Below are positions 3,949 to 60,470 of a stretch of DNA of 64,000 nt, one piece after another (position 1 is the first letter of the stretch; each line of letters starts with the position of its first letter). Source of the stretch: Mizugakiibacter sediminis (GTDB lineage: Bacteria; Pseudomonadota; Gammaproteobacteria; Xanthomonadales; Rhodanobacteraceae); assembly GCF_000953855.2 (NCBI RefSeq), contig NZ_DF970163.1, forward strand, positions 1 through 64,000, given 5' to 3'. The notes beneath the pieces were generated by a model. The model was not told the DNA's origin. It saw only the letters and a list, made by a program, of their open reading frames with translations, and did not search any database. The position numbers and the translations under genes were made by a program.

Positions 3949-6234
3949 ATGAACGCGACACGCAAACTGTGGACCACGCTCGGCCTGCTGCTGGCGGCCT
4001 CGTTCGCGGTCCTGCTGTGGATGGGACGCGAGATCTACCACGCCGCGCCGCCGCTACCCGAGCGCGTGGTCGATGCCGGCGGCCGGCTGCTGTACACGCG
4101 CGACGACATCCTGGCCGGCCGCGACGTCTGGCAGACCACCGGCGGCCAGCAGCTCGGCTCGATCTGGGGCCACGGCGCCTACGTCGCCCCCGACTGGAGC
4201 GCGGACTGGCTGCACCGCGAGGCGCTGGCGCTGCTGGAACGCATGGCGCAGGCGCGCTACGGCGAGGCCTATGCCGCGCTGGACGCCGGGCGCAAGGCCG
4301 GGCTCGAGGCCGAGATGCGCGCCGCGCTCAGGCCGAACACCTACGACGCCGCCACCGGCACGCTGACCGTCTCCGACGACCGCGCCGCCGCCATCCGCGA
4401 AGTCGCCGCGCACTACGAGGCGCTGTTCGGCAGCGACCCCGCGCTGGCGAAGCTGCGCGAGGACTACGCGATGCGCGACGCCACCGTGGACACGGCGGCG
4501 CACCGCCATGCGTTGACCGCGTTCTTTTTCTGGAGCGCGTGGGCGGCGGTGACCGGGCGCCCGGGCGCCGGCGTCAGCTACACGCAGAACTGGCCGTACG
4601 ATCCGCTGGTCGGCAACGAGGCGCCGCCGTCGCTGCTGCTGTGGTCGGTGTTCAGCGTGCTGTTCCTGGTCGCCGGCATCGGCGCGCTGGCCTGGCACCA
4701 CGCCGCGCGCAGGCAGGAGGCGCCGCCGCCGGTGCCGGCCGCCGATCCGCTGGCCGCGCTGGCCATCACGCCGTCGATGCGCGCCACCGCCAAGTACTTC
4801 TGGCTGGTAATCGCGCTGTTCCTCGTGCAGATCCTGCTCGGCGCCACCACCGCGCACTACCAGGTCGAAGGACAGATGGTGTACGGCATGCGCCTGGCCG
4901 ACGTGCTGCCGTACGCGCTGACCCGCACCTGGCACACCGAACTGGCCGTGCTGTGGATCGCCACCGCGTGGCTGGCCACCGGCCTGCTGATCGCGCCGGC
5001 GATCGGCGGCCGCGAACCGCGTTTCCAGCGGCTGGGCGTCAACGTGCTGTTCGGCGCGCTGGTCGCCGTGGTCGTCGGCGCGTTCGCCGGCCAGTGGTTC
5101 GGCGTGATGCAGAAGCTCGGCCTGGCGGAGAACTTCTGGTTCGGTCACCAGGGCTGGGAATACACCGATCTCGGCCGCGTCTGGCAGATCGGCCTGTTCG
5201 CCGGCCTGCTGCTGTGGTTGTTCCTGGTCGGGCGCGCGCTGTGGCCGGCGCTGCGCAGGCGCGACGGCAGCGGCAGCATCGTCGGCCTGCTGTTCCTGTC
5301 CACGGTGGCGATCGCGCTGTTCTACGGCGCGGCGCTGATGTGGGGGCGGCACACGCACATCGCGATGGTCGAGTACTGGCGCTGGTGGGTGGTGCACCTG
5401 TGGGTCGAGGGCTTCTTCGAGGTGTTCGCCACCGCGGTGATCGCCTTCCTGTTCACCCGCTTCGGCCTGGTGCGCGCCGCCACCGCCACCGCCAGCGTGC
5501 TGTTCGCCACCATCGTGTTCATGGCGGGCGGCGTGCTCGGCACGTTCCACCACCTGTACTTCACCGGCACGCCGACCGCGGTGATCGCGCTGGGCGCCTC
5601 GTTCTCCGCGCTGGAAGTGGTGCCGCTGGCGCTGATCGGCTTCGAGGCCTGGGAAACCTGGAAGCACGGCCAGGCCGCGCCGTGGATGGCGCGCTGGCGT
5701 TGGCCGCTGGCGTTCTTCGTCGCGGTGGCGTTCTGGAATCTGGTCGGCGCCGGCCTGTTCGGCTTCCTGATCAACCCGCCGCTGTCGCTGTACTACATGC
5801 AGGGCCTCAACCTGACCGCGCTGCACGGCCATACCGCGCTGTTCGGCGTGTACGGCATGCTCGGCATCGGCCTGATGCTGTTCTGCCTGCGCCTGCTGAA
5901 GCCGGACGCGGTATGGAACGATGCGCTGCTCGGCAAGGCGTTCTGGGCGTTCAACCTCGGCCTGGCGCTGATGGCGCTGTTGACCCTGCTGCCGATGGGC
6001 GTGCTGCAGCTCGAGGCCGTGCTCGGCCGCGGCTACTGGTTCGCGCGCTCCGAGCAGTTCATGCAGCAGCCGATCATCCACCTGCTGGTGTGGCTGCGCG
6101 TGCCCGGCGACACCATCTTCAGCATCGGCGCGCTGCTGATCGGCTGGTTCACGCTGCGTCTGTGGATCGCGCCGCGCACGATGGCCGCGCCGCGCGGCGA
6201 GCCGCTGGCCGCATTGCGGCGCCGCGCCGACTGA
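3949..6234 (+). CDS. norB: quinol-dependent nitric oxide reductase (qNor)
   Basis: Single-subunit NO reductase (761 aa) that oxidises quinol and reduces two NO to N2O in the inner membrane. A first membrane helix is followed by a ~200-residue periplasmic domain, pseudo-cytochrome-c-like and without a CxxCH, which marks the qNor type. About 12 membrane helices of the heme-copper oxidase fold follow. Candidate metal ligands align with the family: H329 and H628 for low-spin heme b, H626 for heme b3, and H483, E487, H534 and H535 for the non-heme iron. The start at 3949 follows a GCGGAGA Shine-Dalgarno-like stretch. An Fnr-type box precedes it and nnrS follows. No separate norC is present, as expected for qNor. 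Confidence 0.95.
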   Translation: MNATRKLWTTLGLLLAASFAVLLWMGREIYHAAPPLPERVVDAGGRLLYTRDDILAGRDVWQTTGGQQLGSIWGHGAYVAPDWSADWLHREALALLERMAQARYGEAYAALDAGRKAGLEAEMRAALRPNTYDAATGTLTVSDDRAAAIREVAAHYEALFGSDPALAKLREDYAMRDATVDTAAHRHALTAFFFWSAWAAVTGRPGAGVSYTQNWPYDPLVGNEAPPSLLLWSVFSVLFLVAGIGALAWHHAARRQEAPPPVPAADPLAALAITPSMRATAKYFWLVIALFLVQILLGATTAHYQVEGQMVYGMRLADVLPYALTRTWHTELAVLWIATAWLATGLLIAPAIGGREPRFQRLGVNVLFGALVAVVVGAFAGQWFGVMQKLGLAENFWFGHQGWEYTDLGRVWQIGLFAGLLLWLFLVGRALWPALRRRDGSGSIVGLLFLSTVAIALFYGAALMWGRHTHIAMVEYWRWWVVHLWVEGFFEVFATAVIAFLFTRFGLVRAATATASVLFATIVFMAGGVLGTFHHLYFTGTPTAVIALGASFSALEVVPLALIGFEAWETWKHGQAAPWMARWRWPLAFFVAVAFWNLVGAGLFGFLINPPLSLYYMQGLNLTALHGHTALFGVYGMLGIGLMLFCLRLLKPDAVWNDALLGKAFWAFNLGLALMALLTLLPMGVLQLEAVLGRGYWFARSEQFMQQPIIHLLVWLRVPGDTIFSIGALLIGWFTLRLWIAPRTMAAPRGEPLAALRRRAD

Positions 6235-6252
6235 GCGGCGGCCGCCAGGGTT

Positions 6253-6314
6253 CCCCGCCCGGCGCAGGGGCCGGGCGGGGCGCTGCGGGGCGGACGGCGC
6301 CGGCCGTCCGCCCC
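6253..6314. terminator. two tandem perfect hairpins after norB
   Basis: The first stem pairs 6253-6262 (CCCCGCCCGG) with 6271-6280 over an 8-nt loop. The second pairs 6287-6298 (GGGGCGGACGGC) with 6303-6314 over a 4-nt loop. Both are perfect and extremely GC-rich. Neither is followed by a T run, so they are terminator-like or RNA 3'-end-stabilising structures rather than clear intrinsic terminators. They separate norB from the Fnr-type box of nnrS. Confidence 0.45.
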
Positions 6315-6320
6315 GACGCG

Positions 6321-6334
6321 TTGACCTGGGTCAG
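6321..6334. promoter_or_regulatory. Fnr/Dnr-type binding site upstream of nnrS
   Basis: The dyad TTGACCTGGGTCAG shares the YTGAC-N4-RTCAG form of the norB site. It ends 85 bp before the nnrS ATG and starts 6 bp after the tandem hairpins. This suggests nnrS has its own anaerobic promoter. Confidence 0.55.
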
Positions 6335-6419
6335 TGCGATGCGGCGCGTCCGCGGCGCATGCTCGACGCTGTCCGGACCATGCCGGCGCCCCTCCGCGAC
6401 GCGCGCCACCCCGCTTCTC

Positions 6420-7676
6420 ATGGACCAGTCCGTCGTCCCGCCGCCCGCCTCGACGCGCCCGCCCGCGCTCGCCGAGCTGCCGCGCATCCTCGCCGCGGCG
6501 CCGCACCGCATGATGTTCTTCGCCGGCGCCGTCGCCGTGCTGGCGAGCATGGGCTGGTGGGCGCTGGAGCTGTCGGCGGGGCGTTGGGGCTGGACCTGGC
6601 TGCCGCAGCCGGCGGTGCCCGCAGGCTGGGCGCACGCGATGTTCGCGCAGTACGGCATGCTCGCGCCGTTCGTCTTCGGCTTCCTGCTGACCGTGTTCCC
6701 GCGCTGGATGAACCAGCCGGAGCTGACGCGCGCGCACTACGTGCCGGTGTTCGGCGGCGTGTTCGGCGGCTACGTGATCGCGCAGGCCGGACTGTTCGGG
6801 CTGCGGCCGCTGCTGGTCGGCGGCGCGGTGCTGATGATGTCCGGCTGGCTGATCGGGTTGTCGCATCTGTTCGGCGTGCTGCGCCGGCATGGGTTCAAGG
6901 ACCGCTGGGCGCTGTCGTGCTTCGGCGCGCTGTCGGTGGGCGCCTGCGGCCTCGCGCTGTTCCTCGCCTTCATGCTCGGCGCCGATCCGCGCCTGGCGCT
7001 TGCGGCGATCAAGCTGGGCACGTTCGGCCTGCTGCTGCCGGTGTACTTCACGGTGGCGCACCGCATGGTGCCGTTCTTCAGCAACAACGTGGTCGCGGGC
7101 TACCGCGTGGTGCGGCCGGCGTGGTCGCTGCCGCTGCTGTGGGCACTGCTCGCCGCGCACCTCGGCTTCGAGTTCGCGCAGGCCCAGCGCTGGCGCTTCC
7201 TCGCCGACCTGCCGCTGGCGCTGTTCTTCCTCGGCCACTGGCTGGCGTGGCAGCCGTGGAAGGCGCGTCGGCCGGGCCTGCTGGCGGTGCTGTACCTCGC
7301 GCTGGCCTGGTTGCCGGCGGCGTTCGCGCTGTTCGGCGCGGACAGCCTGTGCGCGCTGCTGCGCGGCGCCAGTCCGCTGGGACGCGCGCCGGTGCACGCG
7401 CTGACCGTCGGCTTCTTCGGCTCGATGCTGGTGGCGATGGTCACGCGCGTCACGCACGGCCATTCCGGCCGGCCGCTGGCGATGGGGCCGGTGCCCTGGT
7501 TCACCTTCCTCGCCGTGCAGGCGGTGGCGCTCGGCCGCATCGGCGCCGAGTTCGCCGCCGACGCGCCGCGCGCCTACGCGCTGGCCGCGAGCGGCTGGTT
7601 GCTGGCGTTCCTGCCGTGGGCGCTGCGCGCGGCGTACATCTACCTCACGCCGCGCCGCGACGGCCGTCCGGGCTGA
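6420..7676 (+). CDS. nnrS: NnrS family heme-copper membrane protein
   Basis: Polytopic inner-membrane protein (418 aa, about 12 hydrophobic segments) of the NnrS family. These proteins bind heme and copper, are widespread in denitrifiers, and relieve nitrosative stress. Family hallmarks seen are HRMMFF near residue 23, FLLTVFPRWMNQ, the VAHRMVPFFSNN segment, and a late TVGFFGSM..VTRVTHGHSGRP stretch rich in histidines. The start at the ATG (MDQSVVPPP) puts an Fnr-type box 85 bp upstream. It lies between norB and a small SirB2-family gene. It probably protects respiratory iron enzymes while NO is produced by NirK and consumed by qNor. Confidence 0.92.
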   Translation: MDQSVVPPPASTRPPALAELPRILAAAPHRMMFFAGAVAVLASMGWWALELSAGRWGWTWLPQPAVPAGWAHAMFAQYGMLAPFVFGFLLTVFPRWMNQPELTRAHYVPVFGGVFGGYVIAQAGLFGLRPLLVGGAVLMMSGWLIGLSHLFGVLRRHGFKDRWALSCFGALSVGACGLALFLAFMLGADPRLALAAIKLGTFGLLLPVYFTVAHRMVPFFSNNVVAGYRVVRPAWSLPLLWALLAAHLGFEFAQAQRWRFLADLPLALFFLGHWLAWQPWKARRPGLLAVLYLALAWLPAAFALFGADSLCALLRGASPLGRAPVHALTVGFFGSMLVAMVTRVTHGHSGRPLAMGPVPWFTFLAVQAVALGRIGAEFAADAPRAYALAASGWLLAFLPWALRAAYIYLTPRRDGRPG

Positions 7677-7690
7677 GCGGACGGCCGTCG
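7658..7690 (+). terminator. hairpin spanning the nnrS stop codon
   Basis: A perfect 12-bp stem pairs 7658-7669 (CGACGGCCGTCC) with 7679-7690 over a 9-nt loop that contains the nnrS TGA. There is no T run after it, so factor-independent termination is unproven. Confidence 0.4.
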
Positions 7691-7730
7691 TGCGGTACCC
7701 TGCGCGCTTTCCGCTCGCACGGTGAACCGC

Positions 7731-8135
7731 ATGGCGCTGGCCTACTTCTACCCGCAGATCAAGCTGCTGCACATCTGGTGCGTCGCGTTGTCGGGCACGC
7801 TGTTCCTGTTGCGCGGCTCGCTGCGCATGGCCGGCGTCGGCTTCGCCAATCACGCCGCGCTGCGTTATCTGTCCTACGCGATCGACACCACGCTGCTGAC
7901 CGCGGCGCTGATGCTGGTGGCGATCCTGCGCCAGTACCCGTTCGTGCAGGGCTGGCTGACCGTGAAGGTGCTGCTGCTGGCGGTGTACATCGCGCTCGGC
8001 ACGCTGGCGCTGAAGCGCGGGCGCACGCCGCGCGCGCGCGCCGTCGCCTTCGTCGCCGCGCTGGCGGTGTACGCCTTCATCGTCTCGGTGGCGATCGCGC
8101 ACGATCCGCGCGGCGTGTTCGCGCTGCTAAGCTGA
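7731..8135 (+). CDS. SirB2 family small membrane protein
   Basis: Hydrophobic protein (134 aa) with four predicted membrane helices. The N-terminal YPQIKLLHIWCVALSG segment, a conserved histidine-containing start, and the YLSYAIDTTLLTAALML and VKVLLLAVYIALG helices are typical of the SirB2 family, described as an invasion-gene expression regulator but biochemically uncharacterised. I prefer the ATG at 7731, because a GGTGA stretch precedes it, over the GTG at 7722. SirB2 genes are often found near nnrS and NO-related genes, which fits this position 54 bp downstream of nnrS. Its role in NO metabolism is inferred only from context. Confidence 0.8.
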   Translation: MALAYFYPQIKLLHIWCVALSGTLFLLRGSLRMAGVGFANHAALRYLSYAIDTTLLTAALMLVAILRQYPFVQGWLTVKVLLLAVYIALGTLALKRGRTPRARAVAFVAALAVYAFIVSVAIAHDPRGVFALLS

Positions 8136-8161
8136 GGACCGGCCACGGCGAGGGACGGCGC

Positions 8162-9403
8162 ATGGGCTACGACGAAGGCACCCTGCTCGGATTGCTGGCC
8201 GCCCTCGGCGGCGGTCTGCTGGTCGGCGCGGAGCGCGAGCGCCGCAAGGGCGTCGGCCCCACCCGCGGCGTGGCCGGCCTGCGCACCTACACGCTGGCCG
8301 CGCTGCTCGGCGCGGTGGCGGCGATGCTGGGCACGCCGGCGCTGCTGCTGGCCGGCGCCGGCCTGCTGGCGCTGGTCGCGATCGGCTACCTGCGTTCGCG
8401 CGAACACGATCCCGGCCTGACCAGCGAGATCGCCCTGCTGCTGGTGTTCCTGCTCGGCGCGCTGGCGCTGCACGCGGCGCAGTTCGCCGCGGCGCTGTTC
8501 GTGCTGGTGACGATCGTGCTGGCCGGCAAGCAGCGCATGCACCGTTTCGTGCGCCAGGTGCTGAGCGAGCGCGAGCTGCGCGATGCGCTGATCCTCGCCG
8601 CCTCCGTGCTGATCGTGCTGCCGCTGCTGTCGGAGCGCGCGATCGATCCGTTCGGCGTGCTGAGCCCGCGCAAGCTGTGGCTGCTGGCGGTGCTGGTGAT
8701 GGCGATCAACGCCGCCGGCTACATCGCCCTGCGCGCGTTCGGCCCGGCGCTGGGCCTGCCGCTGAGCGGACTGACCGGCGGCTTCGTCTCCTCCACGGCG
8801 ACGATCGCCGGCATGGGCCAGCGCGCGCGGGAACAAGCCGCGCTGCTGCCGGCCTGCGTCGCCGGCGCGATGCTCGCCAACGTCTCCACCGTGGTGCAGC
8901 TGGCGATCATCCTCGCCGTGCTGGACCACGCGCTGCTGGCGCGGGTCATGCCGGCGCTGGTCGCCGCGGGCGCGGTCGCCGCGCTGGCCGCGGGCGCGGT
9001 CGGCTGGCGCATGCGCGGCACGCGCGGGTTGGCGGCGCCGCTGCCGGCGGGACGCGCGTTCCGCTTCGAGCAGGCGCTGCTGTTCGCGGCGATCGTCGCC
9101 GTCGCCCTGCTGTTCGGCGCCTGGCTGCACCGCTGGCTGGGCGACGCCGGCGCGGTGGCGGCGCTGGCCGCCGCCGGCTTCGCCGATGCGCATGCGGCGG
9201 CGGTGTCGGCGGGCCAGCTCTCCGCCAGCGGCGAGCTGGGCGTCGCCGCGGCCGCCTCCGCCGTGCTGGCCGCGTTCGGCAGCAACTCGCTGCTGAAGGT
9301 CGGCGCCGCGGCCACCGGCGGCCGCCGTTATGCGATGCCGCTGATCGTGGCCATCGTGCTGATGAACGTCGCCGCCTGGCTGGCATTCGCCCTCGTGCCT
9401 TAG
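8162..9403 (+). CDS. MgtC/SapB-DUF4010 family membrane protein
   Basis: Polytopic membrane protein (413 aa). The first ~130 residues form an MgtC/SapB-like domain with the GGLLVGAERERR motif and the GLRTYTLAALLG stretch. The rest is the DUF4010 region with the segments TGGFVSSTATIAGMG and FGSNSLLKVGAA, for about 11-12 membrane helices in all. Its molecular function is unknown; MgtC itself affects ATP synthase and magnesium homeostasis in Salmonella, but this should not be transferred. It starts 26 bp after the SirB2-like gene and is probably in its operon. An apparent coding-free gap of 279 bp separates it from nirK. Confidence 0.85.
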   Translation: MGYDEGTLLGLLAALGGGLLVGAERERRKGVGPTRGVAGLRTYTLAALLGAVAAMLGTPALLLAGAGLLALVAIGYLRSREHDPGLTSEIALLLVFLLGALALHAAQFAAALFVLVTIVLAGKQRMHRFVRQVLSERELRDALILAASVLIVLPLLSERAIDPFGVLSPRKLWLLAVLVMAINAAGYIALRAFGPALGLPLSGLTGGFVSSTATIAGMGQRAREQAALLPACVAGAMLANVSTVVQLAIILAVLDHALLARVMPALVAAGAVAALAAGAVGWRMRGTRGLAAPLPAGRAFRFEQALLFAAIVAVALLFGAWLHRWLGDAGAVAALAAAGFADAHAAAVSAGQLSASGELGVAAAASAVLAAFGSNSLLKVGAAATGGRRYAMPLIVAIVLMNVAAWLAFALVP

Positions 9404-47760: not shown

Positions 47761-48600
47761 TCAGACGGACTTCTTTTGCGCCACCACCAGGCAACTGGCG
47801 CCGAAGGGTAAGGTGCGGCCCGCGGCGATCGCCCGGACCTCGGGGCGCAGTATCTTCTCCAGCAGCGAGGCGGCCCAGCTGCCGCCGGATCCGTGTTCAT
47901 CCTCGCTGCTCATCAGTCCATCGCGCCTGCCCAGTCCCAGTCGGTAGGGCAGCGATCGCAGCAGCCAGATCGGAAACACCAACGCCGTGAAGAAATAGGT
48001 CGCGTAAAGGATGTCGAAGCGGGCCGAAAAAAGCTTGTCCAGTGTCGCGCGGGTGTGCCGTCTGAAATGCCCTGCGGAGATGTCGGCACGCGACCACAGC
48101 CACGCGTAGCTCGGCACAGTCGCATACACGCGTCCACCAGGTTGCAAAGCGTCGGCCACACGATCCAGAAAGGCCGCGTCGCGCTCGATATGTTCGATGA
48201 CATCGAACATGCCCGACGCCGCAAGCGAGGCGGGCAAGATGCCCGCGTGCTCAAAGGTGGCGCAGATCACGGTGGGGATTCCCCTGGCCAAACGTGCATT
48301 CCTGGCGCCTACAGGGCCGGGCTCCAGCAAAACGGCCTGATGTCCTTCGGCAAGCAGGCGCGCCGTAACGTAGCCGTTGCCGCCGCCGATGTCGAGAAAG
48401 ACACCCGCAGGAGGCGGGAACCGGCGCATCGACGCAACGATGCAGTCGTTGCGGTGGCGGAACCAGAATGAGCGGTCCTCCACCTGCATGCAGCGCTCAT
48501 GTCCATCGTCCGGGTAGGAGTAATGCGCATCATTCCTCTGGGGGCGGTAAATACCAAGCGCGTCAGGTACGAGACGTGGACTGAATGCAGTGATGTTCAT
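47761..48600 (-). CDS. class I SAM-dependent methyltransferase
   Basis: Methyltransferase (279 aa from the ATG at 48600; an upstream ATG at 48642 would add 14 residues). SAM motif I is VFLDIGGGNGYVTARLL; motif II GMFDVIEHIERDAAFL and the post-II VYATVPSYAWLWS follow. The C-terminal part has a hydrophobic segment FFTALVFPIWLLRSLP, possibly membrane-attached. Sugar O- or C-methyltransferases of this Methyltransf_11/23 type are usual in O-antigen loci, where they can also cap chains. It lies at the 3' side of the minus-strand module, separated from the GtrII-like gene by 48 bp. The substrate is not deducible. Confidence 0.85.
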   Translation of the reverse strand: MNITAFSPRLVPDALGIYRPQRNDAHYSYPDDGHERCMQVEDRSFWFRHRNDCIVASMRRFPPPAGVFLDIGGGNGYVTARLLAEGHQAVLLEPGPVGARNARLARGIPTVICATFEHAGILPASLAASGMFDVIEHIERDAAFLDRVADALQPGGRVYATVPSYAWLWSRADISAGHFRRHTRATLDKLFSARFDILYATYFFTALVFPIWLLRSLPYRLGLGRRDGLMSSEDEHGSGGSWAASLLEKILRPEVRAIAAGRTLPFGASCLVVAQKKSV

Positions 48601-48648
48601 CGAAGGAATGATGGCTGGATCCCAGAAGTGCCCACTTTGCATCGTGCT

Positions 48649-50175
48649 TTACAAGCAAACAAGTATGGCGTCACCACGCTCGGACAGAGAACCTGCAGTC
48701 GGCCAGTTCGGCTTTCCGATACATGCCTTATTAATGTCGTCACCGATGAACACTTTCCGCGTCGTGCCCGTGGCCTCAGTAAAAAGACCGCTGATGGACC
48801 ATGGCTTGGCAAATGCCGAAATATTCATGTCGCCTTGAGTTGTACCGAGGCCCGAAGGATATCCCCATGAGGGATTGCCGATCAGTATAGGTCGACTGTC
48901 ATTCTTGCCAAAATGAGTTTCGACGTCGTGAAGGATTAAGGCAGCTCGCAATTGATCCCAGCGGTTCAATCGCGTCTGGTCGAAAAATACGGACGCACTG
49001 CTGAAAGAGAGTGCCAATAGGGGGAAAGACCAGATCACAAACGCTCCGGATCGGGAGAGCAGAGCGCCACCAACAAGACCTGCGGCAACGATACCGCTAG
49101 CAATCGCATAAGCAGAGATCGAGCGTGGTACAGGCCACCAGCTCTTGCCTACCGCGACGGGGGCGATCGTGGCTGCCAGCATCAAAACGCCACATGCCAA
49201 AATGAGGACAGTGCGGTAGCGGTTTTGGATGAACGCGAGGCCCGCTGAGAGGAGAAGGGCTGCCACGAAAGCGATTTTCGCTCCGTGTGAAAGTATGGGT
49301 TCACCATCCCATACCATGCGCTTCAGCAGCGAGAGCACCTCGATGCAGCGTTGAGGGATATCGGCCACCCCGATCAATGTGGCCCTATTCTCATGGGGAA
49401 GCGAAAAAAGGCGGGACAAAAGAAGATTGATGATTACATACGCAATCGTTGCGAATGCCGGAACAAGAAACGCAATTCTTATGCCGTCATATGAGAACTG
49501 ATCTCCGTGACCGCTTCTGTGTCTCGGAAGCGCAAACATGCCGATCAGCCCACAAAAAGTGGCCGGAACCACAAGCTGATTGATGCCTGCAGCCAATGTG
49601 AGCACCAACGACGAAACCAGAACTCGCTGTCGTAAAGAATTTTTTTCGATGGCCTCATCGGTGCTCTGCCGGAACTGCCTTGCCGCCAAACGGAGCGATA
49701 GGGCGGATAGCAGCCAAGCAATGGCCATGGGTAGATCGGCTTGGCGAAATGTGAAGTATTCAGCGGCGTATGGATGGGAAGCGGCTACTGCTGATCCGAT
49801 TAAGCACGCGGCAAATGATGTTCCTAGGGATAACGGGTAAGAAAAAACCGTGGCGATGAAATATGCATAAGCGCTGATACAAAGAGCAGCAGCAAGAAAC
49901 TGTATTTGGACGAAGTTAATTCCGACGGCATCAAGAGCCAGCGTGATTGGAACGAATGTGTAGCGTCCCTGCGACAGAAAGTGCGCTGCGAGCTGTCGAG
50001 TGGATTCGCTATCGGCGCCAAGCGAAAGCTTGTAGTCGTCTAGCGCGTATCCTCCCAAAAGCGCTGACCCCTTGCTCAAAAAGACGCATAGCAAAACCCA
50101 AGCGAACAGCAGCGCTTGACGCAGCGCCACGTCGCTCGAGAATCTGTCGAACATGAGGTGTTGCGCATTCTTCAT
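48649..50175 (-). CDS. GtrII-like O-antigen membrane glycosyltransferase
   Basis: Polytopic membrane protein (508 aa, about 9-11 hydrophobic segments). The N-terminus, with GYALDDYKLSLG (the first periplasmic acidic DD) followed by a periplasmic QGRYTF stretch, resembles the glucosyltransferase II/GtrC-type phage and O-antigen enzymes. These take a sugar from a polyprenyl phosphate and attach it to O-antigen. There is an ER-type C-terminal soluble region beginning near FFDQTRLNRWDQL. Codon use is much more AT-rich (about 47% GC in 49441-49500) than elsewhere, a mark of transfer. It overlaps the preceding GtrB-like gene by 4 bp. Sequence identity to Shigella GtrII was not tested. Confidence 0.78.
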   Translation of the reverse strand: MKNAQHLMFDRFSSDVALRQALLFAWVLLCVFLSKGSALLGGYALDDYKLSLGADSESTRQLAAHFLSQGRYTFVPITLALDAVGINFVQIQFLAAALCISAYAYFIATVFSYPLSLGTSFAACLIGSAVAASHPYAAEYFTFRQADLPMAIAWLLSALSLRLAARQFRQSTDEAIEKNSLRQRVLVSSLVLTLAAGINQLVVPATFCGLIGMFALPRHRSGHGDQFSYDGIRIAFLVPAFATIAYVIINLLLSRLFSLPHENRATLIGVADIPQRCIEVLSLLKRMVWDGEPILSHGAKIAFVAALLLSAGLAFIQNRYRTVLILACGVLMLAATIAPVAVGKSWWPVPRSISAYAIASGIVAAGLVGGALLSRSGAFVIWSFPLLALSFSSASVFFDQTRLNRWDQLRAALILHDVETHFGKNDSRPILIGNPSWGYPSGLGTTQGDMNISAFAKPWSISGLFTEATGTTRKVFIGDDINKACIGKPNWPTAGSLSERGDAILVCL

Positions 50176-51149
50176 GGCATCTTGTCCCCAGTGCCGGCAG
50201 CGTCGGTGCCTCGGGTATCGCGATAGATGAGGTAAATCGGCCGGTCCTTTACGCTCTCGTACACCCTTCCGAGATAAAGGCCGAGCACGCCGAGGCTGAA
50301 AAGGATCAGGCCTCCCAGCAGCCAAATGGATGTGATCAAGCTGGTATAGCCCAGTACGCTGACCTCGCCGCGCAGGTAGCGAACCAGCGTCCACAACGCG
50401 TAGACGGATGCCAGCAGTGAGATGAGCAATCCGAGTACGGCCGAGACGCGCAAGGGCTTGTCCGAATTGGCCAGGATGATATCGGCGCCTAGCTTGAGCA
50501 GCTTATGCAGATCGTAGCTGCTGCTCCCGTGCTCGCGGGCGCCGTGCTCGACCTCGATCGCGCAACGCCTGAATCCCACCCACTTCACCTGGACCGGGAA
50601 GAAGCGGGTTTTCTCCGGCATGCGCCGGATCGCGTCGACTACCCGCCGGTGGAAAATGCCGAAGTTGGCGGTGCGTGCGTCGAAATCGGCGCTGCTGAGG
50701 TAATTCAGCACGGCGTAGAAGATGCGGGACAACCAGCGTTTGAGGAGTCCGTCCTGACGGCGGGCCCGCGCACCGAAAACGATGTCGTAGCCCTCCTGGG
50801 CCTTCGCGTACAGGCGCGGGATTTCTTCGGGCCTGTCCTGCAGGTCGCAGTCCATCACGACCACCCACTCGCCTTCGCACCGGTCGAGCCCGGCGCTGAT
50901 GGCATAGTGCTGGCCGAAATTGCGTGAAAGCAGCAGGCCGCGCACATGCGCGTCGGAGCGCGCGAGCTGTTCGATGACCTGCCAGGAGTCGTCCGGACTG
51001 CCGTCGCAGACCAGGACAATCTCGTAGCGTTGCGTGATGGCCGTCAGGGCCTTGTCGACGCGTGCACAAAGCTCGTGGAGACAATCCGCGCAGCAGTACA
51101 CGGGGACCAGCACACTTATGTCAGGCTTGGCGGTGGGCACGCAGGGCAT
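50172..51149 (-). CDS. polyprenyl-phosphate glycosyltransferase (GtrB/ArnC-like GT2)
   Basis: GT2 enzyme (325 aa from the ATG at 51149; a longer start at 51179 is possible) attaching a sugar to undecaprenyl phosphate at the cytoplasmic face. Seen are ISVLVPVYCCADCLHEL, the CDGSPDDSW motif, SRNFGQHYAISAGLD, and the acidic MDCDLQDRPEEIPR. FGARARRQDGLLKR marks the GtrB/DPM1 subfamily. Two C-terminal membrane helices (~230-300) with LLGGLILFSLGVLGLYLGR complete the class. It overlaps the GtrII-like gene by 4 bp and the aminotransferase gene by 29 bp, and so is part of one operon. The donor may be the aminosugar from the flanking genes. Confidence 0.9.
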   Translation of the reverse strand: MPCVPTAKPDISVLVPVYCCADCLHELCARVDKALTAITQRYEIVLVCDGSPDDSWQVIEQLARSDAHVRGLLLSRNFGQHYAISAGLDRCEGEWVVVMDCDLQDRPEEIPRLYAKAQEGYDIVFGARARRQDGLLKRWLSRIFYAVLNYLSSADFDARTANFGIFHRRVVDAIRRMPEKTRFFPVQVKWVGFRRCAIEVEHGAREHGSSSYDLHKLLKLGADIILANSDKPLRVSAVLGLLISLLASVYALWTLVRYLRGEVSVLGYTSLITSIWLLGGLILFSLGVLGLYLGRVYESVKDRPIYLIYRDTRGTDAAGTGDKMP

Positions 51150-52260
51150 CCTGGAGCGTGGCAATGACGCGATGAGCATCGAGGTCGGGCAACCACAAGG
51201 GCAATCTGAGCAGGGTATCGCTTACCCGACGCGTAACCGGAAGATCGCCGATGCTGCGGGCGTAGCGCTTGCCTGCCGGCGCATCATGCAGCGGTATGTA
51301 ATGGAAGATGGGGTGGATGTCCTGCTGCTTCATGTACTCGATCACGCCGCTGCGTATGGCGAGCGACGGCAGGATCACATAGTACATGTGCGCATTGTGT
51401 ACGCATCCTTCTGGCACGATCGGGCGGCGGAGCAGCCCGTCCCGTTCGGGTTCCTCCAGAGCGCGGTGGTAGGTTTCCCATATCGCGAGCCGTTCGCGCG
51501 TGATCCTGTCGGCTTCCTCGAGTTGCGCCCACAGGAAGGCGGCGACGATCTCGCCAGGCAGATACGAAGAACCCAGGTCGACCCACGTGTACTTGTCGAC
51601 CTGCCCGCGGAAAAACTTGGATCGGTTGGTGCCCTTCTCCCGGATGATCTCGGCGCGGTCGACGAACTGATCGTCGTTGATGAGGAGGGCGCCACCTTCG
51701 CCCGAGATCACGTTTTTCGTTTCATGGAAACTCAGCGCGGCCAAATGACCGATGCTGCCCAGCGGCCGGCCCTTGTAGCTGGAAAGGACACCCTGCGCGG
51801 CATCTTCGACTACGAACAATCGATGGCGCTCGGCAACGGCCATGATGGCATCCATGTCGCAACCGACGCCGGCGTAATGCACCGCGCAAATGGCCTTGGT
51901 CCTCGGGGTGACGGCTGCCTCGATCAAGGTTTCGTCGATGTTGAACGTGTCGGCTCTGACATCGACGAACACCGGCACCGCGCCGCGCAGTGCGAAAGCG
52001 TTTGCAGTGGACACGAAAGTGAACGAGGGCATGATGACCTCGTCGCCGGGCGCCAGGTCGAGCAATAGCGCCGCCATTTCGAGAGCGGCGGTGCAGGAAT
52101 GGGTCAGCAACGCGCGCTTTGCGCCGAGTCGGGCTTCCAGCCACTGGTTGCAACGTTTCGTGAACAAACCATCGCCCGACAAATGGCCGCTGGCATGCGC
52201 CTCGGCGATGTACTCGAGCTCGCGGCCCGTCATGTACGGCTTATTGAATGGAATCCGCAT
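51121..52260 (-). CDS. wecE: WecE/RffA-like sugar aminotransferase (DegT/DnrJ/EryC1/StrS)
   Basis: PLP-dependent aminotransferase (379 aa). The N-terminus IPFNKPYMTGRELEYIAEAHASGHLSGDG is the near-diagnostic start of TDP-4-amino-4,6-dideoxy-D-galactose transaminase (WecE/RffA). The PLP lysine is K182 in SFHETKNVISGEGG. Further markers are VEDAAQGVLSSYKGRP and the FHYIPLHDAPAGKRY motif. In the enterobacterial common antigen pathway this enzyme aminates TDP-4-keto-6-deoxy-glucose. TDP-glucose synthase and dehydratase (rmlA/rmlB) genes are not in this window and must be elsewhere. It has a WecD-like acetyltransferase two genes upstream. Confidence 0.88.
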   Translation of the reverse strand: MRIPFNKPYMTGRELEYIAEAHASGHLSGDGLFTKRCNQWLEARLGAKRALLTHSCTAALEMAALLLDLAPGDEVIMPSFTFVSTANAFALRGAVPVFVDVRADTFNIDETLIEAAVTPRTKAICAVHYAGVGCDMDAIMAVAERHRLFVVEDAAQGVLSSYKGRPLGSIGHLAALSFHETKNVISGEGGALLINDDQFVDRAEIIREKGTNRSKFFRGQVDKYTWVDLGSSYLPGEIVAAFLWAQLEEADRITRERLAIWETYHRALEEPERDGLLRRPIVPEGCVHNAHMYYVILPSLAIRSGVIEYMKQQDIHPIFHYIPLHDAPAGKRYARSIGDLPVTRRVSDTLLRLPLWLPDLDAHRVIATLQDALRAHRQA

Positions 52261-52263
52261 GAT

Positions 52264-52638
52264 TCATCCTTGGCTGGAGACGATGAGTCCGGCGATCACC
52301 AGGACAAGTCCGACGATCTTGGCCGGGTTGACGGTTTCCCCGAAAAGATGCACGGCGAGTATGCCGACGAGCACGAAGTTGAGTGCCATGAAAGGGTAAG
52401 CCTTGCTCAACTCGAAGCGCGTCATGGCGGCCATCCAGGCGATCGATGCCAGGAAGGCGGCGGCCAGGGCGCTCAGGATCCATGGGTTGACGATAAGTTT
52501 GAGCAGGAAAAGTGTTCTCTCGGAGAATTGCGCGGGTAACGCACCGGCGAGATTGACCTGCCATTTGATCACGATTTGCCCGTAAACCGTCAAAAGCACC
52601 GTCAACAGGATGAGGAAATAGCCCATGAGCGCGTCCAT
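52264..52638 (-). CDS. small DMT/EamA-type membrane protein, candidate lipid-sugar flippase subunit
   Basis: Short hydrophobic protein (124 aa, four predicted helices) of the drug/metabolite-transporter superfamily half-size type, resembling ArnE/ArnF and SMR proteins. The start MGYFLILLTVLLTVYGQIVIKWQVN has a QIVIKW-type segment, and PYPFMALNFVLVGILAV-like helices follow, ending VGLVLVIAGLIV. Two ATGs (52638, 52626) are possible. In ArnEF, such proteins flip aminoarabinose-phosphate-undecaprenol. It sits 3 bp before the aminotransferase and 19 bp after the WecD-like gene. A flippase job for the module's lipid-linked sugar is inferred. No GtrA gene is present. Confidence 0.8.
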   Translation of the reverse strand: MDALMGYFLILLTVLLTVYGQIVIKWQVNLAGALPAQFSERTLFLLKLIVNPWILSALAAAFLASIAWMAAMTRFELSKAYPFMALNFVLVGILAVHLFGETVNPAKIVGLVLVIAGLIVSSQG

Positions 52639-52657
52639 GGTGGCAAAGACGTTTCTA

Positions 52658-53719
52658 TTAAGGTGAAAGATCGATGTACGCCGCATACAACGGCCGTCCT
52701 TCGCCATCGCGAAGAATACCTACGGCTTTCATCGCACCGCTGGAATTCGCCGAGGGAATCAGCTTGTACTCGCGGTGTGCCGCCGTTTGCAAAGCGAAGG
52801 CGTCTTCGAAGCTTGCCACGCGCAAGCTACGGACGCGCAAACGCGGTGCATCGAGAACTGCGCGGCGCGAAGTCCAGTCGATCAAGTCGGTCACCGACGA
52901 TGACGTATATGGTGGGGCCGTCGGCTCAATCGAAAAGCTGTACGCAGCGCAGTGTTCGACATCCGGCGCGTGCAGAAAGGCGTTGACATGAAAAGTGTCG
53001 TAAGCCTCCACCATGGCAAAGCCTTCGCGCCGCCACACCTTCTGTACGGCGAGGTTGCCAATCTGCGTTGAGACGCGCACGCGCGCAAAGCCATTCTCGT
53101 GAAACCACTGCAGCGCGATACGCACAAGACTGCTGTAGATGCCATTCCTGGCAAATTCGGGGAGGACGCCGTTCAGAACGAATTCGCCCGTCGAGGCGGC
53201 GACATCGTGGCTGCAGCACAGGAAGCCCACGATCCGCCCTTCATGGCGGGCGAGCCAGGTAATCTTGTTCGAGGGATCGCCGAGATGACGAATGGCCCAT
53301 TCGCAATAACCGGCGAGCACCTTTTCTGCGTCGAGAACGGGATTCGAGTGGTAGTGGTTGCGATAATCCCGAAACACGCTTGCGACCACCGCGCTGAGTT
53401 CTGCCATGTCCGCCGTCGAGGCCGTGGCGATGCTCACGCGCGTATTGGCAGGGGCGACAAGATCGAGGTTGCGGAGCTCGGCGGCATAGTAAACCAGCGT
53501 ATCGGCGTGGATGACTTCTGCGCCGAAGGCGCCTAGCTTCGACATCCGATGCGCGAGGGTCGTCGGCGTGCGGATGATCGCCAGATCCGCGTTGGCATCG
53601 ACGATTGCTTTCCACAGCCGATCGGGGTCGGCATCGGGGGCGTACCCCCGCACGACGTGAAAACCAAAGCGCGCGCTGTCGGGTGCTGAATACGCAAGTA
53701 TCCTCTCGCTCGTCGTCAC
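52658..53719 (-). CDS. WecD-like GNAT N-acetyltransferase with extra C-terminal domain
   Basis: Acyltransferase (353 aa; GTG start with AGGA upstream). Residues ~15-240 follow the layout of E. coli WecD (TDP-fucosamine acetyltransferase). A degenerate N-terminal half contains KAIVDANADLAIIR, then the acetyl-CoA GNAT core. That core has LNGVLPEFARNGIYSSLV (the Q/R-x-x-G-x-G/A-like loop is weakened) and VSTQIGNLAVQKVWRREGF. WecD is only ~225 aa, so the C-terminal ~105 residues (from about HCAAYSFSIEP) are an addition of unknown fold, ending RPLYAAYIDLSP. It is the first gene of the aminosugar module. Confidence 0.78.
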   Translation of the reverse strand: MTTSERILAYSAPDSARFGFHVVRGYAPDADPDRLWKAIVDANADLAIIRTPTTLAHRMSKLGAFGAEVIHADTLVYYAAELRNLDLVAPANTRVSIATASTADMAELSAVVASVFRDYRNHYHSNPVLDAEKVLAGYCEWAIRHLGDPSNKITWLARHEGRIVGFLCCSHDVAASTGEFVLNGVLPEFARNGIYSSLVRIALQWFHENGFARVRVSTQIGNLAVQKVWRREGFAMVEAYDTFHVNAFLHAPDVEHCAAYSFSIEPTAPPYTSSSVTDLIDWTSRRAVLDAPRLRVRSLRVASFEDAFALQTAAHREYKLIPSANSSGAMKAVGILRDGEGRPLYAAYIDLSP

Positions 53720-53765: not shown

Positions 53766-55721
<1,956 letters not shown>

Positions 55722-55918
55722 GCGGCGGGCTATTCGTGATCGGGCGGCTGCGTTGTCAAAAATGCAAAATAGTATACGCAAGCCTAGCGAAAGATTCAGA
55801 GGATTTTAATCGTCTCTTAACGACGAAGCACGATTTGGATGCCGATGAGTCCGCTAGAATCCCCCGCCATCCCTTCCGGAAAGGGACACGTTCGATCGCA
55901 GTAGTGAGGAATCTCCGC

Positions 55919-58183
55919 GTGCGTTACTTCCTGGTCCTGATGATCCTGGCGGCACTGGCCCCCGTCACCGCAGCGCAATCCAAAGACCACTATCTGCTCG
56001 GCGCATCAGCGTACGCCAATTCGGTCACCGAAGGCGTGCGCAAACTCTATCCCGCCGCCATCGACGAGAACCAGGCGATCGAAGCCGCCGCGGAAGGCAC
56101 CGGCCTGTGGATGCCGCTGCCCTCGGGCGGACGCACCTACCTCAAGTACGTGCGGCACGAACTATACGCGAACGGCGACTGGAGCTGGATCGGCGAAGCC
56201 GACACCGCGATCGGCAAGCAGCCGGTGGTGCTGACCTTCGGCAAGGACGCCGTGTTCGGCACCATTCCCACGCCCTCCGGCCGCGCACTCCACATCGTGC
56301 GGCGGCAGGGCAAGGCGTGGCTCGCGCAGGTGGATCCCGGCCTGGCCGCGCAAAGCGCGGCGCTGGTCGGCACCGCGATGCGCCGCGACGATGCGCTGGC
56401 GCCGCCGGTGGCGCGTTTCCGTCGCGGCGTCAACCTGCGATTCAAGACGAGCGAAGACACGACCGCGCCGTTGCAGTCCGCGCCGGCGCAGGCCACGGCG
56501 GGGGCGGTCGCCACCTCCGGTCCGGTGATCGATCTGATGATCGCCTACACCTCGGGTTTCGCGGCCGCGCAGGGCTCGGACGCCGCTGCCCTGACCCGGC
56601 TCAACTATCTGGTGGCGTACGCGAACCAGAGCTATGTCAACAGCCAGATCAACCTGCGCCTGCGGCTGGTGAAAACGGTCAAGGTCAGCTATCCGGACAA
56701 CACCCTCAACGACAACGCGCTGTACGATCTCTCCGGCTTCGACAACAACGGCAACAGCGTGACGATGCCGTCCTCGTTGTCGACGCTGCCGACCCTGCGC
56801 GTGCAGTACGGTGCCGACCTGGTCGCGTTGGTGCGCAAGTACGACTACGCCTCCAACGGAAGCTGCGGCATCGCCTGGCTGAACGGTGCCGGTGCGGTCG
56901 GAGTCGTCCAGGACGATTATCCGGCGGGCATGGCGGTCGTCGAGGACGGCACGAGTGTCGATCCGGCCACGAACAAGACTTATTACTGCGAAGACAAAAC
57001 GTTGACGCATGAGCTCGGCCATACCATGGGGGCCGCGCACGACATCGCCCACGCCAGCAAGGACAGCAACCAGAATCCGATTCCCGGCGCGTATCCCTAT
57101 TCCTATGGCTACAAGACCGCCGTCAGCGGCAACACCGGCTTCGGCACGATCATGGCCTACGAGGACATGACGCAGGAATCGGTCCAGGTCTTCTCCAACC
57201 CCAATCTTCTGTGCCAGAACGTTCCATGCGGCGTCGCCAACCAGGCGGACAATGCCAGGACGCTTAATCAAACCGCGGCCATCGTCTCCAGTTTCGAAGC
57301 CACCAAGGTGCCGCTCACCAATCCGCCACAGGACGCGAATGGCGACGGCAAATCGGATTTGTTCTGGTACAACGCCGGTTCTGGCTTAATGACCTATTGG
57401 TTGATGAATGGGGCGTCCCGCACTTCCTGGCAGGGGTTCAGCGTCCCTGCGGGTTACCAGCGGCTCGGCGCGGGGGACTTCGACGGCAACGGTGATGCCG
57501 ATGTGCTGTGGTCGACGGCTGCTGGCGACATATATATGTGGCTGAGCAACGGAACCACGTTTACGTCGCAGTATGTCGCGAAGTATCCCGTCGGCTGGGT
57601 GCTTGCGGGGGTGGGGGACGTGAATGGCGATGGCCGTGCGGATCTGTTTTGGTACAACCCGAGCACCGGGATGGTGACCTATTGGCTGATGAACGGCGCC
57701 AGCATGGTTTCCTGGCGTGGATTCACGACGAATACGGGGCTCAAGGCGCTGACTAGCGGCGATTTCGACGGCAATCACAGCGCGGACCTGCTGTGGGAGA
57801 CGCCAAACGGCGCGTTGTACATCTGGTTGTTCGACGGCGCCGCTTTCAACTACTACTACGTCGGTGTTCATCCCGGCGGCTTCGTGCTCGCCGGAGCCAC
57901 CGACATCAACGGCGACGGCAAAACCGACCTGATCTGGTACAACCCGTCCAGCGGCGCGGTCACTGTCTGGGTGATGAACGGGGCGAGTATCGCGCAGCAG
58001 TTGCAGTTCCAGACCAACACGGGGCTGCAGGCGGTGGCCACGGGCGACTTCAATGGCGACGGCTACGGCGATATCGTCTGGAAGCTCTCGTCGGGTGCCA
58101 TGTACATGTGGTTGTTCAGTGGCGCTTCTTTCAATTACTACTACGTGGACTCGTATCCGAGCGGCTGGACGAGCGTCCCCTGA
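55919..58183 (+). CDS. secreted zinc metalloprotease with FG-GAP/VCBS-type repeats
   Basis: Exported protein (754 aa; GTG start at 55919 with GAGGA 8 nt upstream). A signal peptide ends near VTAAQS. After a propeptide-like region, a metzincin domain has H364-E365-L-G-H368-T-M-G-A-A-H374-D375, the HExxHxxGxxHD of reprolysin-like (M12B-type) or related enzymes, with a Met-turn IMAYED. The C-terminal ~285 residues are six FG-GAP/VCBS-like motifs (DxNxDGxxD at about 470, 515, 567, 611, 661, 705), three ~95-residue doublets. The calcium-binding aspartates repeat with aromatic strands ([15 protein letters not shown]). It probably acts as a secreted enzyme or adhesin. The substrate is unknown. Confidence 0.88.
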
Positions 58184-58624: not shown

Positions 58625-59566
<942 letters not shown>

Positions 59567-59590
59567 GGCTTGCCCTTCGTATCTCGTGGG

Positions 59591-59710
59591 GTGGGCCGCG
59601 GCCCACCGGTGCGTCGGGTGGGCTCGGGCCCACCCTACACGATTGCTGCGGGAGGGGCTTCAGCCCCGGGTTCGGAGTGCCTTGCGGACCGCGGCCGAAG
59701 CCGCGGCGAC
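59591..59710. repeat. cluster of four REP-like hairpins between etfB and etfA
   Basis: Four consecutive perfect hairpins. GTGGGCCGCGGCCCAC lies at 59591-59606. GGGTGGGC/GCCCACCC pairs 59616-59623 with 59628-59635. GGGGC/GCCCC pairs 59654-59658 with 59663-59667, with a TTCA loop. CCGCGGC/GCCGCGG pairs 59689-59695 with 59700-59706, with a CGAA loop. The GGGGCTTCAGCCCC core is the style of extragenic palindromes in Xanthomonadales genomes. They fill almost all of the gap in what should be an etfBA transcript. Confidence 0.65.
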
Positions 59711-59723
59711 CAGGCCGCCCGCG

Positions 59724-60470
59724 TCACAGCAGGCCCTTGGCCTTCAGCGCCGCGACCAGTTCCGCCACGTCCTTCACCATCACGCCCTTCTGGCGCTTCG
59801 GCGGCGGCGCGTAGCGCGTGATCCTGAGGTGATCGCCGGGCTCGACGCCCAGCGAAGCGAACTCGACCGTCTCGATCGGCTTCGACTTCGCCTTCATGAT
59901 GTCCGGCAGCTTGATGAAGCGCGGCTCGTTGAGGCGGAGATCGGTGGTGATCACCGCCGGCAGGTCGACTTCCAGCGTCTCCAGGCCGGCGTCGACCTCG
60001 CGCGTGACGCGCGCCTTGCCGTCGGCGACCTCGACCTTGCTGGCGAACGTCGCCTGCGGGCGGTTCCACAGCGCGGCCAGCATCTGCCCGGTCTGGTTGC
60101 AGTCGTCGTCGATCGCCTGCTTGCCGACGATCACGAGCTGCGGTTGTTCCTTCTCGACCAGCTTGAGGAAGACGCGCGCGGCGGTCAGCGGCTGCACCGC
60201 GTCCGGCGCGACCACGTGGATGGCGCGGTTGGCGCCCATGGCGAGGCCGTTGCGCAGGTGCGCCTGCAGGTCGGCGGGGCCGATGCCGACGACCACCACC
60301 TCGGTCGCCACGCCCTTCTCGCGCAGGCGCAGCGCTTCCTCCAACGCGATGTCGTCGAACGGATTGGCGGACAGCTTGACGCCCTCGGTCGCCACGCCGG
60401 AGCCGTCCGGCTTGACGGTGATGCGGACGTTGTAGTCCACCACGCGCTTGTAGCCGACCAGGATCTTCAT
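59724..60470 (-). CDS. etfB: electron transfer flavoprotein subunit beta
   Basis: Beta subunit (248 aa), binding AMP and forming the ETF dimer. It starts MKILVGYKRVVDYNVRI. The family signature GPADLQAHLRNGLAMGANRAIHV and the later GKQAIDDDCNQTGQMLA (AMP-binding) and RVTREVDAGLETLEVDLPAVITT are present, and the C-terminal SLGVEPGDHLRI fits. The ATG at 60470 has GAGGAA 9 nt upstream, better than in-frame alternatives further upstream. It is the first gene of etfBA. The ETF would work with the ETF-quinone oxidoreductase at the window's right end. Confidence 0.96.
   Translation of the reverse strand: MKILVGYKRVVDYNVRITVKPDGSGVATEGVKLSANPFDDIALEEALRLREKGVATEVVVVGIGPADLQAHLRNGLAMGANRAIHVVAPDAVQPLTAARVFLKLVEKEQPQLVIVGKQAIDDDCNQTGQMLAALWNRPQATFASKVEVADGKARVTREVDAGLETLEVDLPAVITTDLRLNEPRFIKLPDIMKAKSKPIETVEFASLGVEPGDHLRITRYAPPPKRQKGVMVKDVAELVAALKAKGLL

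Follow-up and report, generated by a model that had tools for sequence, protein, structure and literature searches.

A predicted periplasmic glycosylation module with its own aminosugar supply in a lipopolysaccharide locus of Mizugakiibacter sediminis

What is the joint function of a tight cluster of genes for an acyltransferase, a small transporter, an aminotransferase and two glycosyltransferases in Mizugakiibacter sediminis (GCF_000953855.2; 3.12 Mb in 149 contigs)? The cluster lies at positions 48649-53719 of a 64,000-nucleotide stretch of contig NZ_DF970163.1 (hereafter, the window), and a preliminary description had interpreted it as a five-gene unit for making, flipping and transferring an acylated aminosugar. 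We consider it quite probable that the genes form a three-component module for glycosylation in the periplasm that supplies its own sugar; it would add an N-acylated sugar of the 4-amino-4,6-dideoxy-D-galactose (Fuc4N) type to a polysaccharide. The genes of the transcription unit are as follows.

52658-53719, minus strand: WecD-like GNAT N-acyltransferase (GTG start, 353 amino acids)
52264-52638, minus strand: small DMT/EamA protein, ArnE/ArnF-like, putative flippase for a sugar on undecaprenyl phosphate (Und-P) (Pfam EamA)
51121-52260, minus strand: WecE-type dTDP-4-keto-6-deoxyglucose transaminase (NF008687, TIGR02379)
50172-51149, minus strand: GtrB/ArnC-like polyprenyl-phosphate glycosyltransferase (Pfam Glycos_transf_2)
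48649-50175, minus strand: GtrII-like polytopic GT-C glycosyltransferase (Pfam Glucos_trans_II, 508 amino acids)
47761-48642, minus strand: class I S-adenosylmethionine methyltransferase, sixth gene of the transcription unit (Pfam Methyltransf_23/11)

The open reading frames (ORFs) agree exactly with the five minus-strand genes first described, with gaps of 19 bp (GNAT-DMT) and 3 bp (DMT-WecE) and overlaps of 29 bp (WecE/GtrB) and 4 bp (GtrB/GtrII-like, ATGA). The family labels given to these genes are also backed by Pfam and NCBIfam, narrowly so in the case of EamA. The five genes stand as listed, but the unit is larger than proposed: the methyltransferase gene, 6 bp downstream of the GtrII-like gene on the same strand, had been overlooked.

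From the families, order and conservation of these genes, the lineage of the aminotransferase and a structure model of the acyltransferase, we infer the following substrates and steps. RmlA and RmlB, encoded elsewhere in the genome, would supply dTDP-4-keto-6-deoxyglucose, and the WecE homologue would aminate its C4 to give dTDP-Fuc4N. The WecD-like GNAT would acylate the amine, most likely with an acetyl group, other acyl groups being possible. GtrB would transfer the sugar to Und-P, and the single ArnE/F-like DMT protein would flip the Und-P-sugar. In the periplasm, the GtrII-like GT-C enzyme would add the sugar, most likely to the Wzm/Wzt-exported O-antigen of its own metB-etfA locus. The transferred sugar is probably Fuc4NAc, and it is possibly O-methylated, a step that the methyltransferase may perform.

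The predicted identity of the sugar draws on the aminotransferase, which scored 605.7 bits against the WecE equivalog model NF008687 (cut-off 375) and 613.3 bits against TIGR02379 (cut-off 434.85). Its sequence identity to E. coli WecE is 61%, and that to VioA 29%, our yardstick for the latter being a protein of E. coli strain CE10 annotated as the enzyme for dTDP-Qui4N (viosamine). All 23 related aminotransferases are likewise nearer to WecE (57-71%) than to VioA (28-37%). The tree of these enzymes is weakly resolved (3 of 24 inner branches starred), and the window enzyme has no firm placement within the clade. Because the enzyme is of the WecE lineage and not the VioA lineage, dTDP-Fuc4N is the favoured product, and the predicted sugar has the galacto configuration of Fuc4N rather than that of Qui4N; a VioA-type product as first choice was rejected on the same identities. 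The 4-acylamino-4,6-dideoxyhexose initially proposed is supported in outline by the gene families, and the WecE lineage would narrow it to Fuc4N. It had also been claimed that the cluster covers each step of the pathway. This applies to the enzyme classes and to the pathway order, but the steps to dTDP-glucose and the 4,6-dehydratase step need rmlA and rmlB; genes like these are adjacent to each other on another contig (C14) of the source genome.

The acyltransferase matches Pfam Acetyltransf_1 with 39.8 bits. In its AlphaFold2 model, the predicted local distance difference test score (pLDDT) is mostly above 90 over residues 5-250; the C-terminal stretch of about 100 residues, which is not found in several relatives, has pLDDT below 50 and is predicted to be disordered. 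The best PDB match of the model is WecD, the TDP-fucosamine acetyltransferase (2fs5_A; Foldseek TM 0.82 on the target). VIA-align also ranks 2fs5_A first, with Z 21.8 (next 18.7) and a root-mean-square deviation of 2.6 A over 214 residues. The model has a WecD-like fold.

The two glycosyltransferases suggest how the sugar would reach the periplasm. The first matches the solved GtrB sll0501 in the PDB with E 4e-64 over residues 8-308 and ArnC with E 5e-52, and it has a DXD motif at residue 100 and two C-terminal transmembrane (TM) segments. The last enzyme scored 37.3 bits against PF14264 (Glucos_trans_II; cut-off 30), and it has about 8 TM segments by hydropathy and a DDY motif near the N-terminus; it had no NCBIfam match. 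The ArnC-like score, together with the ArnE/F-like scores of the DMT protein, could be taken as signs of an Arn-like modification, in which lipid A or core receives a 4-amino sugar, free or acylated, that reduces binding of cationic peptides. In the same direction, weaker matches to the DMT profile outside the family include paired small EamA genes, which at the two loci whose ORFs were listed (L127 and L128) lie behind an ORF that we take to be ArnT-like. However, the equivalog cut-offs for ArnB (NF008658, 200.9 bits against 631), ArnC (NF007986, 206.8 bits against 529), ArnE and ArnF were all missed, the GNAT would block the free amine, and the last enzyme matches GtrII in Pfam. PRK06988, a model other than ArnA, scored 38.9 bits (cut-off 316). 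We therefore regard a lipid A modification as very unlikely.

The putative flippase of the proposed glycosylation module is a single small protein with four TM segments by hydropathy, which scored 29.3 bits against Pfam EamA (cut-off 28.2). It has no match to PF04138 (GtrA), nor does any gene of the unit; the genome's single GtrA match lies elsewhere, on contig C88. A profile of the DMT subfamily had no matches among PDB sequences at E 0.01.

A comparison with genome G161 is informative about this protein. Relatives of the GT-C enzyme are rare (at E <= 1e-6, its own genome and one other among 230 of the family), and none was found in a search of viral contigs. The sole relative in the 229 other family genomes occurs in G161, an assembly with 9% contamination, as two identical copies that are 31-32% identical to the window's enzyme. 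A PF04138 GtrA gene lies 15 bp upstream of it, and the locus also holds etfA and relatives of the window's GT2 (80%) and GT4 (57%) enzymes; WecE, DMT and GNAT had no match within 15 kb of the GtrA/GT-C pair. Because this GT-C relative adjoins GtrA in a locus with related O-antigen glycosyltransferases, the DMT protein appears to take the place of GtrA, as the preliminary description had supposed. The common backbone glycosyltransferases and the related last enzyme mean that a common O-antigen backbone would fit as acceptor. These observations fit a division in which the GT-C enzyme would follow the acceptor and the flippase the donor sugar. The two loci are a natural pair for a flippase-swap readout of sugar specificity: their last enzymes and backbone glycosyltransferases are related, but one has GtrA and the other an ArnE/F-like protein.

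Do these genes belong together, or do they adjoin by chance? A search of 147 genomes of the bacterial family with the GNAT gave 41 genomes at E 0.001, nine of which, including the window, were strong (E 1e-40 or better); the rest were generic. In six of the remaining eight strong loci, GtrB and DMT accompany the GNAT. At E 1e-30, the GNAT was present in 10 of 299 genomes of the order. Scanning named genomes yielded 10 loci, all in Lysobacterales except one contig filed under a cyanobacterium, and nine of them carry GtrB, GNAT, DMT and WecE. The exceptional contig (L041), filed under Tolypothrix campylonemoides, holds a Lysobacterales-like lipopolysaccharide (LPS) locus, and contamination of that assembly is probable. 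We dropped four loci as duplicates (L043, L045, L047 and L048, which repeat G066, G053, G136 and G009) and left out G084 (L119), which has DMT, methyltransferase, WecE and GtrB with no detected GNAT. GtrB, GNAT and DMT then occur together in 14 distinct loci (including the window and G174), 13 of them with WecE, the exception being G054. Because the genes recur together in other genomes, their grouping is more than chance, and the co-occurrence check that had been suggested comes out in favour of the module.

In each of the 14 loci, the stretch retrieved contains etfA/etfB or metB, and in seven loci (L032, L033, L040, L041, L042, L046 and L113) GtrB or GNAT is the next matched gene after etfA. 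At all 23 loci checked by hydropathy, a large polytopic protein is encoded no more than 6 kb from the DMT gene; in L029 and L031 this ORF is doubtful, and none convincingly adjoins the module. Methyltransferases are present in 6 of the 14 distinct loci (the window, L029, L032, L035, L039 and L041); they are of two kinds, not all close to the window's. At one of these loci, the methyltransferase is fused in frame to the WecE-type aminotransferase (L035:7202-9223, plus strand, 673 amino acids). On this distribution, Fuc4N-type side branches of the O-antigen are predicted in some Lysobacter, Luteimonas, Rhodanobacter and Frateuria strains, and the genes can be scored in genomes.

The DMT gene provides a further view of the association. 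With a profile built from seven members, and counting scores of at least 100 bits, we found the subfamily in 18 of the 233 family genomes (next scores at most 64 bits), and WecE occurs in 27 of the 233 at E 1e-100. Both are present in 15 genomes (Fisher p 7.7e-14, uncorrected for kinship and thus only a guide), and in 14 of the 18, including 8 of the 11 that lie outside the profile-building set, the distance from WecE to the DMT gene is at most 7 kb. GtrA is also present in all 18 DMT genomes, at 27 places, each more than 10 kb away from the DMT gene; the closest, in G054, is 10.1 kb from it. It could be argued that the O-antigen GT2 and GT4 enzymes use the sugar in the cytoplasm, and that GtrB, DMT and GtrII are an unrelated unit or a drug exporter adjoining by chance. 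This would account for two of the nine strong GNAT loci (G126 and G136), where WecE and GNAT occur without GtrB or DMT in 20 kb. The related GT2 and GT4 genes of G161, without WecE in 15 kb, are neutral on this question. However, the association of DMT with WecE across genomes, the overlapping genes in one transcription unit and the repeated co-occurrence with GtrB all argue against it, and we give cytoplasmic use very little credence.

Several results nevertheless weigh against a periplasmic module of the proposed kind. The DMT protein would flip an Und-P-sugar, yet it scored 40.0 bits against ArnF and 38.1 bits against ArnE, where the equivalog cut-offs are 99 and 92; four of its relatives are likewise below these cut-offs. 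Three genomes (G054, G028 and G073) have the DMT subfamily without a WecE match at E 1e-100. In G012, 86 kb separate WecE from the DMT subfamily gene; next to WecE are two further small EamA-like ORFs, and one of these matches the DMT protein over 52 residues. The single-sequence structure model of the GT-C enzyme (pLDDT 43) is too poor for use of its fold, and the 15 kb surrounding the GtrA/GT-C pair of G161 gave no GtrB match. Against the WecD equivalog models, the GNAT scored 45.3 and 44.6 bits (cut-offs 219 and 195.1), and its Trp229 aligns with Tyr208 of E. coli WecD, presumably the general acid and a catalytic residue. Trp occupies this position in 15 of 16 sequences (11 rows of A4, and L029, L031, L035 and L113), the exception being Met in L030. 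Because of this replacement and the low WecD scores, the acyl donor, the acyl group or the mechanism may differ from that of WecD.

DMT genes beyond the 14 loci occur in other contexts. The G012 stretch (L140:4104-16378) holds etfA, a methyltransferase 47% identical to the window's, acetoacetyl-CoA synthetase, a GtrB-like gene, two EamA-like genes, WecE and a 518-aa ORF; it may be a variant in which a flippase pair serves WecE. A second form of module with the DMT subfamily is seen in L109, L112, L114 (5820-11778) and L115. In this form, the DMT gene is preceded by a GtrB that is more distant (31-34%), an ORF resembling a methyltransferase, and genes for PylC-like/HAD and WbqC proteins; Pfam was run on L114 only, and some ORFs of L109, L112 and L115 were not cleanly called. 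WecE is present in L109 and L114, and absent from the stretches of L112 and L115. The second form may join an amino-acid-like group to the 4-amino sugar by an amide bond.

In a sample of 398 genomes of the phylum, the genes run DMT, methyltransferase, WecE in each of the two strongest matches outside the window (G326 and G556). Ten weaker loci were inspected (L125-L134): L125 has WecE, five (L127, L128, L129, L131 and L133) have paired small EamA genes, L132 carries a GtrB-like piece along with a distant DegT (31%), and L126, L130 and L134 have neither WecE nor paired EamA genes. The DMT protein had no match in phages at E 1e-5 and one in plasmids at E 1e-8. The latter, in a Peteryoungia plasmid, is beside WbqC, GT2 and methyltransferase genes, with no WecE listed in the PLSDB gene tables, which are incomplete. 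A generalization of these observations is tentative, and we would lean somewhat against it: the DMT subfamily might be a single-gene flippase for Und-P-4-amido-4,6-dideoxyhexoses, with ArnE/F-like proteins used if C4 carries nitrogen and GtrA if the hexose is neutral, irrespective of the acceptor. The subfamily would serve both the GNAT branch (type 1) and the PylC-like/HAD-WbqC branch (type 2), the latter perhaps making amino-acid-like amides. Type 1 blocks are present in the type strains Lysobacter maris KCTC 42381 and Luteimonas padinae KCTC 52403, for example.

The surroundings of the window's module bear on its acceptor and on the acyl donor. The genes on its upstream side are as follows.

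53766-55721, minus strand: acetoacetyl-CoA synthetase, flanking gene (TIGR01217, 906 bits)
55736-58183, plus strand: M12/reprolysin-like metallopeptidase with FG-GAP repeats, between the acetoacetyl-CoA synthetase and etfA
58625-60470: etfA/etfB, flanking the acetoacetyl-CoA synthetase side of the locus

Between a metB-like gene and the module, on the opposite strand, are O-antigen ABC transporter genes (called Wzm/Wzt-like by position and likeness), a sulfotransferase-like protein gene, and the GT2 and GT4 genes. PMC2238763 describes a matching arrangement for the metB-etfA LPS locus of xanthomonads, and this position supports the LPS setting first assumed. The module has a GC content of 0.53-0.63 and GC at third codon positions (GC3) of 0.56-0.81, while GC3 is 0.92-0.98 in the flanking metB, acetoacetyl-CoA synthetase and etfA/etfB genes; because of this lower GC3, the module resembles an insert in a high-GC genome. 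The synthetase recurs near etfA/etfB in the family, in the window with the metallopeptidase gene in between, and it seems to delimit the variable LPS locus on one side. Elsewhere in the window, the AT skew is strong over about 4 kb (positions 5001-9000, -0.26 to -0.38), which suggests a long repetitive or strand-biased gene.

The synthetase gene, 46 bp upstream of the module, raises the question of whether it supplies the acyl group. Hydroxybutyryl-viosamine occurs on flagellin, and the module might make N-acylated viosamine, with 3-hydroxybutyryl fed by the synthetase, as in flagellin glycans of plant-associated bacteria. The synthetase also adjoins or is near module genes in G024, G054 and G139, and in G012 it lies between the methyltransferase (47%) and the GtrB-like gene, with WecE about 5.6 kb further. 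In addition, a Rhodanobacter metagenome-assembled genome (L034:8674-10624, plus strand) has a related WecE and GNAT pair without GtrB or DMT amid genes that we take, from likeness, to be flagellin-like and flagellar; this pair possibly serves flagellin glycosylation from the same sugar. However, among 30 fetched synthetase loci (the window's included, 1.5 kb seen on each side), eight (L085, L088, L094, L096, L099, L105, L106 and L107) have the synthetase beside etfA with no GNAT or DMT match; L088 and L096 have other GtrB-like genes, and L096 also a distant DegT. The gene has a core-like GC3 (0.937), and genome G001 of the same genus has the synthetase at 93% identity with no GNAT, DMT or WecE match. 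Because it stands beside etfA without GNAT or DMT elsewhere and has core-like GC3, we set it aside as acyl supplier. It is most likely a core flanking gene with insertions around it, although the sequence evidence is no proof. Given also the identities of the aminotransferase to WecE and VioA, we consider the viosamine reading unlikely.

How does the proposed Fuc4N module compare with known systems? The Gtr systems of Shigella and Salmonella phages likewise combine a polyprenyl-phosphate glycosyltransferase, a small 4-TM flippase and a variable, acceptor-specific GT-C enzyme in one unit. The module differs in that its flippase is of the EamA/DMT type and not PF04138, and in having its own aminosugar genes, with a dTDP donor predicted rather than UDP. 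The Arn pathway (ArnB, ArnC, ArnE/ArnF, ArnT) also has a 4-amino sugar, a GT2 polyprenyl-phosphate transferase and an EamA-type flippase, whereas the module has a single flippase gene instead of the ArnE/ArnF pair, an N-acyltransferase and a GtrII-like last enzyme. With the enterobacterial common antigen (ECA) it shares a WecE equivalog and WecD as the closest known fold of the GNAT model. However, the module would use an Und-P-sugar route and not direct transfer by WecF; the ECA pathway was rejected, as WecF (PF07429) had no match in the genome at E 0.001, while an E. coli control matched.

The preliminary description had called the cluster a mix of ECA, Arn and Gtr logic. The DMT protein is indeed combined with Gtr-style parts, but the module is not wholly new, because an ArnE/EmrE-like flippase has been published. 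PMC11127046 describes a three-component O-antigen system of Citrobacter youngae O1/O2 with a small flippase that resembles EmrE and ArnE and is called a MATE family protein, and with a GT-C enzyme acting on O-antigen after polymerisation. As described there, that system makes its lipid donor from PRPP by a DPPR-synthase-like enzyme and not by GtrB, and it transfers a pentofuranose without an aminotransferase. ArnE/F and phage GtrA have both been counted among small multidrug resistance (SMR) proteins (PMC7389260). Among the matches listed from the openly licensed PMC literature, we found neither the combination of WecE, GtrB and ArnE/EamA nor Fuc4NAc in Lysobacterales O-antigens. We regard the module as a recurring new combination of known parts, in which an Arn-type flippase, known from sugar pathways of antibiotic resistance, is joined to a phage-style decoration system.

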